Positions 18,255-49,770 of a stretch of 64,000 bases of DNA are shown one piece after another (position 1 is the first letter of the stretch; each line of letters starts with the position of its first letter). Below the pieces are notes generated by a model that searched no databases, had not been told where the DNA came from, and was given only the letters and a program-made list of their open reading frames with translations. The translations under genes and the position numbers were made by a program. Source of the DNA: Hydrogenophaga sp. SL48 (GTDB lineage Bacteria > Pseudomonadota > Gammaproteobacteria > Burkholderiales > Burkholderiaceae_C); contig NZ_CP063400.1 in the NCBI RefSeq assembly GCF_021729865.1, forward strand, positions 3,596,001-3,660,000. Direction: 5' to 3'.

Positions 18255-18782
18255 TCAGCTGGGCGGCAGTTCCATGAACTGCGGTTCAATGCCCAGGGAG
18301 CGCAGCCAGTCGGCCATGGCAAGCCCGGTTCCCGCAGGCCAGCACTTGACCTGTTCGGGGGGCAGCAGCTTGTATTCGACCAGTTCGGGCGACAGCCGGA
18401 TCTCGCCCTCGGCCAGCGCATGGTAGGTGATGAGCACCTGGTTCATGCGCTGAAAGTCGTGCACACCCACCAGGCGCAGGGCGGTGACGGTCAGCCCCGT
18501 CTCTTCGGCGATCTCGCGCCGAATGCCTTCTTCCGGCGTCTCGCCCGCCTCCATGAAACCGGTGATCAGGGCAAACATGCGGTTCTGCCAGGCCGCGTTG
18601 CGCGCGAGCAGCACCTTGTCGCCCACCTGCACGATGCCGGCCAGCACGGGCGTGGGGTTGTTCCAGTGCGTGAAGTCGCAGGCCGTGCAACGCAGGCGCT
18701 CCTTGTAACCGCCGTCTTCCTCGCTGCCGACAAGGGCCAGCGGCGTGGCACAGCAGGGGCAGAAACGAAACTCCGCGCTCAT
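18255..18782 (-). CDS. NUDIX hydrolase with N-terminal zinc ribbon
   Basis: 175 residues. The N terminus has two CxxC-type pairs (Cys8/Cys11 and Cys32/Cys35) forming a zinc ribbon, like the middle part of NudC NADH pyrophosphatase. A perfect Nudix box runs from Gly75 through Glu81, Arg89, Glu90, Glu93, Glu94 and Gly96 (GX5EX7REUXEEXGU). It hydrolyses a nucleoside diphosphate linked to another group; NADH or a nucleotide sugar are possible. The start at 18782 places the zinc ribbon at the very N terminus. The IS110 element is inserted 60 bases upstream. Confidence 0.88.
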   Translation of the reverse strand: MSAEFRFCPCCATPLALVGSEEDGGYKERLRCTACDFTHWNNPTPVLAGIVQVGDKVLLARNAAWQNRMFALITGFMEAGETPEEGIRREIAEETGLTVTALRLVGVHDFQRMNQVLITYHALAEGEIRLSPELVEYKLLPPEQVKCWPAGTGLAMADWLRSLGIEPQFMELPPS

Positions 18783-18819
18783 AAGGCACCCTCCGCTCTT
18801 CGAGCTGCGGTGCGAGCTT

Positions 18820-18838
18820 GCTTGGGGCGGCCCGGCGC
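18820..18838 (+). repeat. Short intergenic repeat, copy 2
   Basis: Identical 19-base match to 2404-2422. The IS110 element begins five bases after it, so the insertion target is the edge of this repeat. Confidence 0.6.
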
Positions 18839-18865
18839 GGCGCTCACTGGACTACCCTCTCTTCC

Positions 18866-19170
18866 CCGTTGGATGAAAGGCGGTGCAGGGTTGTCCACGG
18901 TGGCGGTTGGTCGGCGCTTGCGACGAACCGACCGAGCGCCGCGGTGGGCAACCCGTGTTTGACGTGTTGCCGTGTCCAGGCGGATCGTTCGAATTGACTT
19001 CCGTGCCCTTGCAGTGACTGCCTGCGGCGCTCGCCGTACGACGGCCCGCATGAGACCCGCAGCCTGCAAGGTGCCGGAAGACCCAGACGGGCTACAGGGT
19101 GTTGCGCCGCACTGACCTCAGGGTGTGAGCGCCGATCAGTGAGCGTCCCGCGTGGGCTTCCGGCACGGCC
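18866..19170 (+). ncRNA. Predicted IS110 bridge RNA
   Basis: The left-end region folds into three modules. First, a scaffold stem 18888-18898 with 18944-18954 enclosing CGGCGCT/AGCGCCG. Second, a target loop closed by CCTTGCAG (19007-19014) and CTGCAAGG (19064-19071). Third, a donor loop closed by 19071-19085 with 19153-19166. Target guides: GCGGCGCT at 19024-19031 is identical to the left flank 18837-18844, and CCGCATGAG at 19046-19054 is the reverse complement of the right flank 20423-20431. Donor guides: ACAGGGTGT at 19094-19102 is identical to the right end 20414-20422, and CAGTGAG at 19137-19143 is the reverse complement of 18843-18849. Ends are approximate. Confidence 0.82.
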
Positions 19171-19200
19171 AGTCATACCGCAACTTGCAGGAGTTTGTCT

Positions 19201-20412
19201 ATGAATTCCATCTTCGCCGGGCTGGATTGGGCCAGCCAAACCCACGCCGTGTGCGTCATCGACGAGCGCGGCGCCGTTTGCAAGCAGTGGGAGGTCGCGC
19301 ACGATGCCGACGGCTTGCGTGAACTCTTGCGCCAGCTGCGCGCCTTGCACGTGCTGCGCATCGCCATCGAGCGTCCCTCCGGGCTGCTGGTCGACGCCTT
19401 GGTGGAGGCCGGCTTCGAAGTCGTGCCCATCCACCCCAACGCCGTCAAGGCCAGCCGGCCGCGCTACCGCAGCCACGGCGGCAAGTCCGACGCCTCTGAC
19501 GCCTACTTGCTGGCCGACCTGCTGCGCACCGACGGCCACCGCTTCAAACCGCTGGCCGCGCAGTCCGACGAGATCCGCGCGTTGCGTGCCTTGGTGCGCG
19601 GCCGTGATGACCTGGTGGCCACCCGCGTGCAACTGGCCAACCAACTGCGCGCCCTGCTGGAGTCGTACTGGGCCGGTGCCGCCGAGATCTTCGCCGATGT
19701 GGACTCGCCCATCGCGCTGGCCTTCATCCAGCGCTACCCGACGCCAGAGGTGGCCAGCCGGCTTGGCCCCAAGCGCATGGCCGCCTTCTGCTCCCAGCAC
19801 GCCTACTGCGGCCGGCGCAGCGCCGAGGAATTGCTGCAACGGCTCAGGCAGGCCCCAGCCGTTGGCTTGGGCGAGCTGGAGATGGACGCCAAGGGCGAAC
19901 TCGTCTGCAGTCTGGCGCGCACCCTGAGCACACTGGTCGATCAAATCCGGCTGCTGTCGGGCCGCATCGAGCACCAGGTGGGCGCCAGCGACGATGGCCG
20001 CATCCTCATGAGCTTCCCGCGCGCCGGGCGCATCTGTGCCGCACAGATTCTGGCCGAGCTGGGCAGCGTGCGTGAGCGCTTCGACTCCGACGAACACCTG
20101 GCCGCCGAGGCCGGCGTCGCACCGGTCACCTACGCCTCGGGCAAGCACAAGGCCGTGACCTTCCGCTGGGCCTGCAATCACCGGCTGCGCCGTGCCCTGA
20201 CCACCTTGGCCGACAACTCCCGCCATGCCAGCGCATGGGCCGCCGACGTCTATGCGAACGCGCGTGGCCGAGGCTGCGACCACCCTCACGCCATCCGCAT
20301 CCTCAGCCGCGCCTGGTTGCGTGTCATCTGGCGCGCCTGGATCGACCGCAAACCTTACGACCCCGCCGTCCACGGCGGGCTTCAAACCATGCTCAAAATG
20401 GCGGGGGGTTGA
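19201..20412 (+). CDS. IS110-family RNA-guided recombinase (transposase)
   Basis: 403 residues. The N-terminal RuvC-like DEDD residues are Asp9 (AGLDWAS), Glu57 (AIERPS), Asp97 and Asp100 (KSDASDAYLLADLL). A central coiled coil (VRGRDDLVATRVQLANQL) follows, then the C-terminal Tnp domain with SFPRAGRICAAQILAELGS and the candidate catalytic Ser313 in VTYASGKHK. Members of this family form a synaptic complex with a bridge RNA that pairs with target and donor DNA. All key residues are present, so the enzyme looks active. The start at 19201 has CAGGAG 11 bases upstream; a TTG at 19195 is also in frame. Confidence 0.95.
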   Translation: MNSIFAGLDWASQTHAVCVIDERGAVCKQWEVAHDADGLRELLRQLRALHVLRIAIERPSGLLVDALVEAGFEVVPIHPNAVKASRPRYRSHGGKSDASDAYLLADLLRTDGHRFKPLAAQSDEIRALRALVRGRDDLVATRVQLANQLRALLESYWAGAAEIFADVDSPIALAFIQRYPTPEVASRLGPKRMAAFCSQHAYCGRRSAEELLQRLRQAPAVGLGELEMDAKGELVCSLARTLSTLVDQIRLLSGRIEHQVGASDDGRILMSFPRAGRICAAQILAELGSVRERFDSDEHLAAEAGVAPVTYASGKHKAVTFRWACNHRLRRALTTLADNSRHASAWAADVYANARGRGCDHPHAIRILSRAWLRVIWRAWIDRKPYDPAVHGGLQTMLKMAGG

Positions 20413-20424
20413 CACAGGGTGTCT
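20409..20424 (+). promoter_or_regulatory. Right-end half of a circle-junction promoter
   Basis: TTGACA at 20409-20414 points out of the right end. In the excised circle it would lie 18 bases (8 right-end, CT core, 8 left-end) before TACCCT at 18853-18858, creating a sigma-70 promoter for the bridge RNA. Neither half is a full promoter in the integrated form. Confidence 0.6.
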
Positions 20425-20431
20425 CATGCGG

Positions 20432-21334
20432 TCAGGCTGGGAACACGCCAGTCGAGAGGTAGCGGTCACCCCGGTCACAGACGACGAACGCGATGGTCGC
20501 GTTCTCCACCTGGCCCGCGACCTGCTGCGCCACCCAGCAGGCGCCTGCGGCCGAGATGCCGGCGAAGATGCCTTCTTCGCGCGCCAGCCGGCGGCACATC
20601 TCTTCCGCGTCGCTCTGGCTCACCAGCACCAGCTCGTCCACACCCGAAGGATCGTAGATCTTGGGCAGGTACTCCTGCGGCCACTTGCGGATGCCGGGGA
20701 TGCGCGAGCCCTCGCTGGGCTGCGCGCCGATGATGCGGATCGCCGGGTTCTTTTCTTTCAGAAAGCGCGAGACGCCGGTGATGGTGCCGGTGGTGCCCAT
20801 GGCGCTCACGAAGTGCGTGATGCGCCCGCCGGTCTGCTCCCAGAGCTCCGGGCCGGTGGTTTCGTAGTGGATGCGCGGGTTGTCGGCGTTGGCGAACTGG
20901 TCGAGCACCCGGCCCTTGCCCTCTTTCTCCATCTTGTCGGCCAGGTCGCGCGCGTACTCCATGCCACCGCTCTTGGGGGTGAGGATCAGCTCAGCGCCGA
21001 AAGCCTTCATGGTCTGGGCACGTTCGATCGACAGGTCCTCCGGCATGATCAGCACCATGCGGTAGCCCTTGATGGCGGCGGCCATGGCCAGGGCGATGCC
21101 GGTGTTGCCCGAGGTGGCCTCGATCAGCGTGTCGCCGGGCTGGATCTCGCCACGCTCCTGAGCGCGCTGGATCATCGAGAGCGCCGGGCGGTCCTTCACC
21201 GAGCCGGCCGGGTTGTTGCCTTCAAGCTTGCCCAGCACCACATTGCCCCGGGCCTGGTGGTCGGCGGCGCCGATGCGCTGCAGCGCCACCAGCGGCGTGT
21301 GGCCGATGGCATCTTCAATCGTCGGATAGTTCAT
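20432..21334 (-). CDS. cysM: Cysteine synthase B (O-acetylserine sulfhydrylase B)
   Basis: 300 residues from ATG 21334 (MNYPTIEDAIGHTPLV). The PLP-binding Lys47 is in NPAGSVKDRPA, the phosphate loop is EATSGNTGIALA, and the later GTTGTITGVSRFLKE is also conserved. CysM makes cysteine (or S-sulfocysteine from thiosulfate) from O-acetylserine. An in-frame GTG at 21343 would add three residues. The stop codon abuts the IS110 target, and the gene is intact. Head-to-head with tRNA-Leu. Confidence 0.95.
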   Translation of the reverse strand: MNYPTIEDAIGHTPLVALQRIGAADHQARGNVVLGKLEGNNPAGSVKDRPALSMIQRAQERGEIQPGDTLIEATSGNTGIALAMAAAIKGYRMVLIMPEDLSIERAQTMKAFGAELILTPKSGGMEYARDLADKMEKEGKGRVLDQFANADNPRIHYETTGPELWEQTGGRITHFVSAMGTTGTITGVSRFLKEKNPAIRIIGAQPSEGSRIPGIRKWPQEYLPKIYDPSGVDELVLVSQSDAEEMCRRLAREEGIFAGISAAGACWVAQQVAGQVENATIAFVVCDRGDRYLSTGVFPA

Positions 21335-21346
21335 GAGCGCCACTGT

Positions 21347-48599: not shown

Positions 48600-49770
48600 G
48601 GCTACGCTGAACAAGTCCATGGGTGGCGCGAGGTTTGCATGTATCGAGGTCCCTGATACACGGAGGTGAAGATGAAGCAACAGACCCTGGCGATGGCAGC
48701 CGATCAAGGCGACGGATTCGAGCAGTACCGCAAGCCGACCAAGCGCGATGCGTTCCTGGCGACGATGGAACAGATCGTGCCCTGGCAGGCGCTGTGCTCG
48801 GTCATCGAACCTCACTACCCCAAAGCCGGCAACGGGCGCCCACCGATCGGGCTCGAACGCATGCTGCGGATGTACTTCGTGCAGCACTGGTTCAACCTGG
48901 CCGATGAGGCCTGCGAAGAGGCCCTGCTCGACAGCACGGCGCTGCGCCGCTTTGTGGGCATCGATCTTGGGCGGGAGCGTGTGCCTGACGGGACCACCCT
49001 GCTGAAGTTTCGCCGCCTGCTGGAGCAGCACAAACTGGGCGAGGCCCTGTTTGCCAAAGTGGGGGAGGTGCTGCAGGCGCGAGGCTTGAAGGTGGGCACC
49101 GGCACCATCGTGGACGCCACCATCATCGGCGCGCCCAGTTCGACCAAGAACGCCGACAAGCAGCGCGACCCCGAGATGCACCAAACCCGCAAAGGCCAGC
49201 AGTGGTATTTCGGGATGAAGATGCACATTGGCGTGGACAGCCGCAGCGGGCTGGCGCACAGCGCTGTGGTGACAGCAGCCAACGTGCACGACAAGCACCC
49301 GCTGCCCGATCTGCTGCACGGCAACGAGCAGCGTGTGTATGGCGACAGTGCCTACGCCAGCCAGAAAGCGTTGATCGGATCGAAGGCCCCCAAGGCCAAG
49401 GACTTCACCAACCAGCGCGTGCGCAGGGGTGGCGATATCGACGAGGCCGAGCGCTCCAGGAACCACAACAAGTCCAAGGTCCGCGCCCGGGTCGAACACG
49501 TCTTTGCTGTGGTCAAACGGCTCTGGGGCTTTGCCAAGGTGCGCTACCGAGGTCTCGCCAAGAACGCCACGCGCTCGTTCGTGGTGCTGGGTTTGGCCAA
49601 CATCTACCTGGCGCGTCAGCGCCTCATGGCATGAGTGCGTCCGTTGCGCACGACGGGTGCGCGAGCACGGCTGGTATGTCCAGGGAACGCGGTCGAATCG
49701 CGCCGCTTGCCCGCGTCGGCAACCCTTTGCGTAGCGGGCCACTCAATTCGGCTACTTGTTCAGCGCTGCC
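48600..49770 (+). mobile_element. IS5-family insertion sequence, complete
   Basis: 1171 bases. Terminal inverted repeats are 17 bases: GGCTACGCTGAACAAGT at the left and ACTTGTTCAGCGCTGCC at the right, with two mismatches. A direct TTAG lies at 48596-48599 and 49771-49774. TTAG fits the YTAR target preference of the IS5 group, so this is a four-base duplication. One full-length transposase gene is inside. It sits in the MoxR-VWA interval. Confidence 0.93.
48672..49634 (+). CDS. IS5-family DDE transposase
   Basis: 320 residues from ATG 48672 with GGAGG five bases upstream. The N-terminal IS5 blocks are PWQALCSVIEPHYPKAGNG and LERMLRMYFVQHWFNLADEA. DDE residues are expected in GTIVDATIIGAP (first Asp), YGDSAYAS (second Asp), and RARVEHVFAVVKR (Glu); all are present. 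It looks full length and probably active. Confidence 0.95.
   Translation: MKQQTLAMAADQGDGFEQYRKPTKRDAFLATMEQIVPWQALCSVIEPHYPKAGNGRPPIGLERMLRMYFVQHWFNLADEACEEALLDSTALRRFVGIDLGRERVPDGTTLLKFRRLLEQHKLGEALFAKVGEVLQARGLKVGTGTIVDATIIGAPSSTKNADKQRDPEMHQTRKGQQWYFGMKMHIGVDSRSGLAHSAVVTAANVHDKHPLPDLLHGNEQRVYGDSAYASQKALIGSKAPKAKDFTNQRVRRGGDIDEAERSRNHNKSKVRARVEHVFAVVKRLWGFAKVRYRGLAKNATRSFVVLGLANIYLARQRLMA

Follow-up and report, generated by a model that had tools for sequence, protein, structure and literature searches.

Bridge RNAs encoded in the left ends of IS110 elements have already been described (PMC11208160), and the IS621 system, as set out in the sections of two papers drawn on here (PMC11208160, PMC11208158), resembles the element analysed below, which lies in a 64,000-nucleotide stretch of DNA (the window). 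Both have a left-end bridge RNA with two loops, each with a left and a right guide on opposite strands, as well as a CT core, DEDD plus Ser residues in the transposase, and REP-type repeats as common targets. They differ in that the element of the window targets CTCAY at gene joints, has a left end with a Shine-Dalgarno (SD)-like stretch and a start codon, carries an extra hairpin upstream of the RNA, and has a candidate bridge-RNA promoter inside its left end, whereas the IS621 promoter spans the joined right and left ends. ISEc21 (seekRNA; PMC11187229, in the part cited) is likewise of IS110 type, with an upstream non-coding region that yields a guide RNA and with no target duplication, but its target apparently lies inside IS3-family transposase genes, and the sole mention of a ‘start codon’ in that part of the paper concerns protein curation.

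IS900 of Mycobacterium, also of the IS110 family, has the target motif CATGNNNNNNTCTCCTT and is said to target translation initiation signals (PMC8141618, section on this element). Compared by eye with that motif, the right flanks in the clade of the window’s element read CTCA and then T or C, with no TCTCCTT in common. Insertion of IS900 parts the start codon and the ribosome-binding site, and its gain is reportedly, going by the title of Doran’s 1997 work, expression of the element’s own hed gene. The element of the window, in contrast, brings the signal itself and keeps the neighbour’s stop codon; IS900 is a partial precedent. In the excerpt of PMC3706429 used here, an IS110-like element among the virion genes of mycobacteriophage Omega has CACTG at both ends, read there as a 5-bp target duplication; CACTG are also the letters after the CT core in the left end of the window’s element, and one may only guess that the Omega element, too, entered a start-like site by way of a CT core. 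Dispersed host repeats serve as landing sites for IS elements that target REP sequences (PMC1525189, passage cited), whereas the landing point here is the joint between a repeat and the end of the next gene, and joints without a visible repeat are also used. For other elements, the relevant passage of PMC3196728 discusses IS ends so near a start codon that no Shine-Dalgarno sequence would fit in between. A limited literature search, covering few subscription journals and some papers in part, found no account in which an IS110 element enters stop-start overlaps or in which its left end provides a start.

We consider it likely that the window contains a bridge-RNA-guided IS110 element that inserts at stop-start joints and whose left end gives the downstream gene a new start. 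Neither the operon-joint pattern nor the start signal in the left end was part of the earlier note on this DNA.

The element, its boundaries and its copies

The element and its neighbours are as follows, in coordinates of the window.

18843..20424, plus strand: IS110-group element, 1582 bp with the CT core counted at both ends; delimited by four identical copies, their flanks and the empty site L127
18843..19200, plus strand: left end with the predicted bridge RNA; RNA stretch aligned to 15 relatives
19201..20412, plus strand: IS110 transposase gene, 403 aa from ATG (PF01548, PF02371, NF033542)
20409..20422, plus strand: right end, TTGACACAGGGTGT
18837..18844, plus strand: left target plus core, GCGGCG-CT, equal to the left target guide
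20423..20431, plus strand: core plus right target, CT-CATGCGG, reverse complement of the right target guide
18255..18782, minus strand: NUDIX hydrolase gene, left neighbour (PF00293)
20432..21343, minus strand: cysM, right neighbour, left whole by the insertion (NF008735)

The host genome, a single contig of 5.43 Mb, contains four copies of the element, each of 1582 bp and 100% identical, which argues that it is active or was recently active. The flanks of the four copies read GGCGGCG|CT|CATGCGA, CGCGGCG|CT|CATGCGG, GGCCGGG|CT|CATGCCA and CGCGGCG|CT|CATGGGG; all four thus have a G before the core and CATG after it. The three insertions other than that of the window retain guide-like flanks, as the guides read in the earlier note would predict, and the expectation that every copy occupies a GCGGCG-CT-CATGCGG-like site holds as far as G|CT|CATG is concerned, but is loose on the left at copy 3, where the left target guide matches 4 of 7 positions.

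The genome of a relative, G041, contains two of these sites without the element. At L127, the window’s site, GCGGCG-CT-CATGCGG is present with a single CT beside a cysM gene that is 95.7% identical, and L157, the empty site of copy 3, also has a single CT. Both are consistent with the boundaries proposed earlier (CT at 18843 and at 20423), and at both the window’s copy and copy 3 the element has inserted at a dinucleotide core without a longer duplication. No exact empty site for copy 1 was found among the loci of 29 relatives.

The layout of the element, with a non-coding left end of 358 bases and a right end of about 12, is that of the IS110 group, and its transposase belongs there as well. 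The protein covers positions 1-154 of the 155 of DEDD_Tnp_IS110 (PF01548) and 2-86 of the 87 of Transposase_20 (PF02371), and passes the NCBIfam model NF033542, ‘IS110 family RNA-guided transposase’, with 189 bits against a cut-off of 140; the original assignment to IS110 is thereby borne out by both domains at near full length. Residues D9, E57, D97, D100, S313 and G314 are invariant across 12 transposase sequences and were matched, by spacing and motif rather than by structure alignment, to D11, E60, D102, D105, S241 and G242 of IS621 (PMC11208158, residues as given in the part used). A search against PDB sequences gave no match at E 0.01. We classify the element within the IS110 group and regard the arrangement of joint plus start as a variant of that group.

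Relatives of the element are present in 8 of 399 family genomes, host included (profile search, E 1e-100). At E 1e-120, a profile search of 399 order and 369 class genomes returned nothing beyond the host’s four copies; the element’s clade therefore looks rare. The relatives compared below came from 12 loci on genome contigs, from the 8 of 399 family genomes, from 18 plasmid records (four fetched) and from two viral contigs. Right-end pieces of the same kind, without a transposase match, were seen in genus genomes at L007, L008, L009, L027 and L030, with CTCA directly after the piece in all of them.

Guides and fold of the predicted left-end RNA

Four short guides and three larger structural features were located in the left end.

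19024..19031, plus strand: left target guide (LTG), GCGGCGCT, identical to 18837-18844
19046..19054, plus strand: right target guide (RTG), CCGCATGAG, reverse complement of 20423-20431
19094..19102, plus strand: left donor guide (LDG), ACAGGGTGT, equal to the right end at 20414-20422
19137..19143, plus strand: right donor guide (RDG), CAGTGAG, reverse complement of 18843-18849
19001..19005, plus strand: 5' arm of the basal stem, pairing with 19164-19168 (helix 1, 98.8% paired over 16 elements)
19007..19071, plus strand: target-binding stem-loop (helices 2 and 3), with a small hairpin at 19033-19045 between the guides
19071..19166, plus strand: donor-binding stem-loop (helices 4-7)

All four guide matches, which the earlier note had reported, proved exact to the base on direct reading. 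Could they be chance matches in a GC-rich left end? When the left end (18861-19200) was shuffled 20,000 times, single guide matches were not rare, arising 32 to 524 times (524 for the 8-mer, 395 for the 7-mer), but neither all four matches together nor three or more of them arose once. Chance is also refuted by covariation of the guides with their sites and ends across 15-16 elements, and we give it practically no credence. For this comparison, sixteen distinct bridge RNAs, including that of the window’s element, were aligned. The LTG matches its own site better than the sites of other elements (4.22 versus 3.01 of 7 positions, 15 elements), as do the RTG (6.14 versus 4.84 of 8), the RDG with its own end (5.38 versus 3.87 of 8) and the LDG with its own end (9.38 versus 7.93 of 10); none of 20,000 permutations did as well for any of the four. 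Individual pairs of RTG and site illustrate the pattern: GTGTGAG with CTCACAC in L077, CTGTGAG with CTCACAG in L079, and AAGTGAG with CTCACTT in L080. The LTG is the weakest guide, with 1-2 of 7 matches in L035, L037, L080 and L089 and the 4 of 7 already mentioned for host copy 3; the lowest RTG score is 4 of 8, in L035. L036 was left out of the LTG test because its contig starts at the element and has no left flank, and L117 and L118 stand outside the guide and fold tests, their left ends not being delimited; the LTG of L078 was placed by hand (one extra base), and that of L124 lacks the CT.

The predicted RNA also has a conserved fold. Of the 43 pairs in the alignment fold, 15 are changed on both sides (compensatory), and 96.1% of cells are paired, with pairing falling to 35-42% in slid versions of the fold; on four of five measures, none of 500 shuffles was as good. 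Folded as a single sequence, the RNA stretch alone is unexceptional (z -1.58, with 12 of 200 shuffles as good), whereas the whole left end is exceptional (z -3.11, with 0 of 100 shuffles as good). The stem of the target loop, CCTTGCAG (19007-19014) with CTGCAAGG (19064-19071), and that of the donor loop, 19071-19085 with 19153-19166 and one bulge, are both present as first proposed. A small hairpin had been proposed between the guides of each pair; that of the target pair stands, at 19033-19045, and the donor stem-loop is supported as helices 4-7. A search of the window with the curated RNA families of Rfam at gathering score returned two tRNAs and no bridge RNA match, a result not weighed against membership. 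Taken with the covariation of all four guides with target and donor, the conserved fold agrees with the earlier reading of a bridge RNA that has a target and a donor loop and guides pairing to opposite strands, and the left-end RNA is supported as a predicted bridge RNA.

Two further features lie upstream of the RNA.

18959..18964, plus strand: TTGACG, candidate -35 box of the bridge RNA; TTGACN kept in 12 of 16 left ends
18889..18953, no strand: long hairpin (predicted fold), outside the bridge RNA core

Relative to the RNA, TTGACN stands at -39 or -38 in those 12 left ends, where its distance from the left tip ranges from 59 to 227 bases; since the spacing to the RNA is fixed while the distance to the tip varies, an internal promoter for the bridge RNA may lie in the left end. 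A scan of 18780-20500 for consensus promoters and terminators found no full promoter, no usual -10 box and no terminator. The right end contains TTGACA. In 8 of the 16 left ends, just 56-62 bases precede the RNA, leaving no room for the long hairpin, which is thus not part of the RNA core.

The long hairpin (TTGTCCACGG..CGCTTGCGACGAAC..CGCGGTGGGCAA) has further occurrences next to transposases of unrelated types (IS3/rve, IS21 IstB, Mutator/IS256), and one close to a tyrosine integrase (L200). Besides the window, its loci include L011, L029, L201, L202, L203, L205 and L206, and 25 matches, four of them in the host’s element copies, were found in 12 of 200 family genomes, with none for the reversed control. 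It sits directly behind the transposase gene in several loci, and could be a shared insulator or terminator.

Insertion at stop-start joints and the dispersed repeat

The right half of the target in the element’s clade is CTCAT or CTCAC. On the opposite strand this reads RTGAG, in which a TGA stop codon overlaps a start codon. In a first set of 21 insertions, 14 have an opposite-strand frame that is 80 codons or longer and stops precisely at the target TGA, as do 10 of 14 in a second set (24/35 pooled); among control CTCATG sites, the counts are 7 of 36 for the window and 27 of 116 for genus loci that overlap in content. The threshold of 80 codons was chosen with the first set already in view, and the second set, of 14 right flanks, was read later; with a line at 100 codons, the counts are 13/21 and 10/14 against 6/36 window controls. 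TGA-ending frames with a Pfam family above cut-off were present at 21 of the 35 insertions (12/21 and 9/14) and at 3 of the 36 controls (Fisher p = 3e-6, with insertions taken as independent). Long frames without such a family were those of L003 (weak Bactofilin), L039 and L007. L041 (the same insertion as L006) and L118 (the same as L117) were omitted, L043, which has no right end, is not among the 35, and L040, with a run of N at the test position, was scored as a miss. All controls were CTCATG, whereas the targets also include CTCAC and CTCAT followed by another base; a wider control (87/342) includes element copies and overlapping loci and was not used.

Joints could be named by Pfam in several cases: transketolase-type E1 with lipoyl domain E2 (L037), CagX with TrbI (L124), Nitro_FeMo-Co with DUF269 (host copy 4, L004), NAD_binding_11 dehydrogenase with TctC (L087), and MFS with a cyclase (L078). 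The first three pairs we take to be known operon partners. At L157, the unoccupied site of copy 3, the ATGA overlap is intact. Eleven of the 35 insertions have no TGA-ending frame of this length, among them the window’s own copy, where cysM stops 8 bases away. Elsewhere in the window (48657-49631), the frame of a DDE transposase (PF01609) ends at a CTCATG site.

Of 10 exact host sites that carry no copy, five likewise coincide with the end of a frame 80 or more codons long; the motif may thus have a bias of its own towards junctions. This bias suits an alternative that we consider unlikely, in which the element is an ordinary bridge-RNA IS110, the joints are a by-product of guides that read the edge of an intergenic repeat, together with the loss of harmful insertions, and the SD-like stretch is an inverted repeat. 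The repeat in question adjoins the element in the window.

18778..18842, no strand: dispersed host repeat of 65 bp; the left half of the target forms its right edge

Of 102 first-look candidates in the host genome, 40 were scored, giving at least 26 matches to this repeat. Host copies 2 and 4 abut its right edge and copy 1 abuts a cousin of it, so that repeat-like sequence adjoins three of the four copies, as it does, by eye, at L078, L082, L085, L087, L089 and L116; moreover, the host repeat is itself mostly found at such joints. Against a by-product of repeat edges, no repeat was seen at host copy 3, L037, L039, L124 or L125, and yet each of these insertions occupies a stop-start joint and has its left end in frame.

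The repeat itself could be a short non-autonomous element with the same type of site and left end, part of one bridge-RNA ecology with the IS; this tentative idea, doubtful on present evidence though compatible with guided insertion at joints, draws on its CT flanks and on its start, which resembles an IS left end (at host copy 1 the two read CTCACTGGACCACCCTC and CTCACTGGACTACCCTC, and in L116 both read CTCATAAGGCAACCTCC). In addition, the NUDIX gene adjoins cysM in 27 relatives, of which L127 alone has the host repeat there. However, the right end of the repeat, GGCGCGGCG, is unlike any right end that the 16 LDGs read, no element with a donor loop to fit it came up incidentally, the left ends of its other copies vary, and its likeness to the IS left end may reflect just a shared start signal. 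Across L090-L115 the repeat has CT on both sides, begins like the IS left end and lies mostly between a stop and a start; it is possibly a small mobile element in its own right. The repeat in the window encodes a short frame, MSAAPGRPKQARTAARRAEGAL, ending in ATGA on the next start, and one host repeat lies at the copy-1 joint in L168. Other repeat-like sequences occupy the space between cysM and the NUDIX gene in L128, L134 and L146, ending in GCGTCATA, GCGTCATG and GTTTCATG.

The left end as a possible start signal

The left end carries letters that could give the downstream gene a new start.

18845..18859, minus strand: GTG start codon (18845-18847) preceded by SD-like GAGG (18856-18859), both oriented towards the left flank

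Read outward, the left ends begin with ATG or GTG followed by AG (RTG-AG) in 16 of 16 cases. GGAG, GAGG or AGGA lies 4-11 nt before the start in 12 of these 16, with AAGG in the other four; in letter shuffles of the same stretches, 12 of 16 was reached in 0 of 2000 trials, the maximum being 9, although the 16 left ends are related to each other and thus not independent. In L003, L037, L039, L124 and L125 the left gene’s frame begins at the element’s codon itself, and at other loci a repeat of ~65 bp lies in between, with its own start for the left gene. Length of the left-side frame alone showed no enrichment (10/21 insertions, 16/36 controls). Frames on both sides were found at 9 of 21 insertions versus 4 of 36 controls, and at 19 of 116 control sites in genus loci. 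We infer that the downstream gene would be translated from the element’s left end.

Conservation of the SD-like stretch has another possible reason, in that it overlaps a sub-terminal inverted repeat, GGAGGTTGAC in the right end and GGAGGTTGCC on the other strand of the left end. That this short inverted repeat is visible in the element’s ends favours the alternative of an ordinary IS110 element with an incidental SD-like stretch; yet the right ends of L124 and L125 lack GGAGG, while their left ends retain AAGG at 7 nt.

Guided insertion that hands over a start would proceed as follows. A DEDD/Ser recombinase would be steered by the left-end bridge RNA, the target loop reading GCGGCG-CT-CATGCGG-like sites and the donor loop reading the joined right and left ends. 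A circular intermediate, its assembly with the RNA and cleavage after CT are proposed by analogy with IS621, as are the chemistry and the expression of the RNA. Exchange at the CT core would give a clean insertion without further duplication. The upstream gene would keep its TGA through the core plus flank, and the element’s left end would bring ATG/GTG-AG with the SD-like stretch, giving the downstream gene a new start in the same frame; insertion would probably do little harm to the operon. The guides, the ends, the two empty sites, the conservation of the fold and the preference for joints can all be read from the sequences themselves.

On balance, we lean somewhat towards a further interpretation, in which the RTGA overlap, a common operon joint, is read by the target guide and is a safe harbour for this clade. 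The left end would have been shaped together with its own donor guide and would hand over a complete ribosome-binding site and start, allowing many operons to be entered with neither gene broken. With four copies and two empty sites, the rules of a bridge RNA can be read end to end in a natural element. These findings suggest a means of harmless spread, through the choice of guides and through an end that also serves as a translation start. Should this hold, such left ends would be natural parts for adding DNA between the genes of an operon with translation kept.
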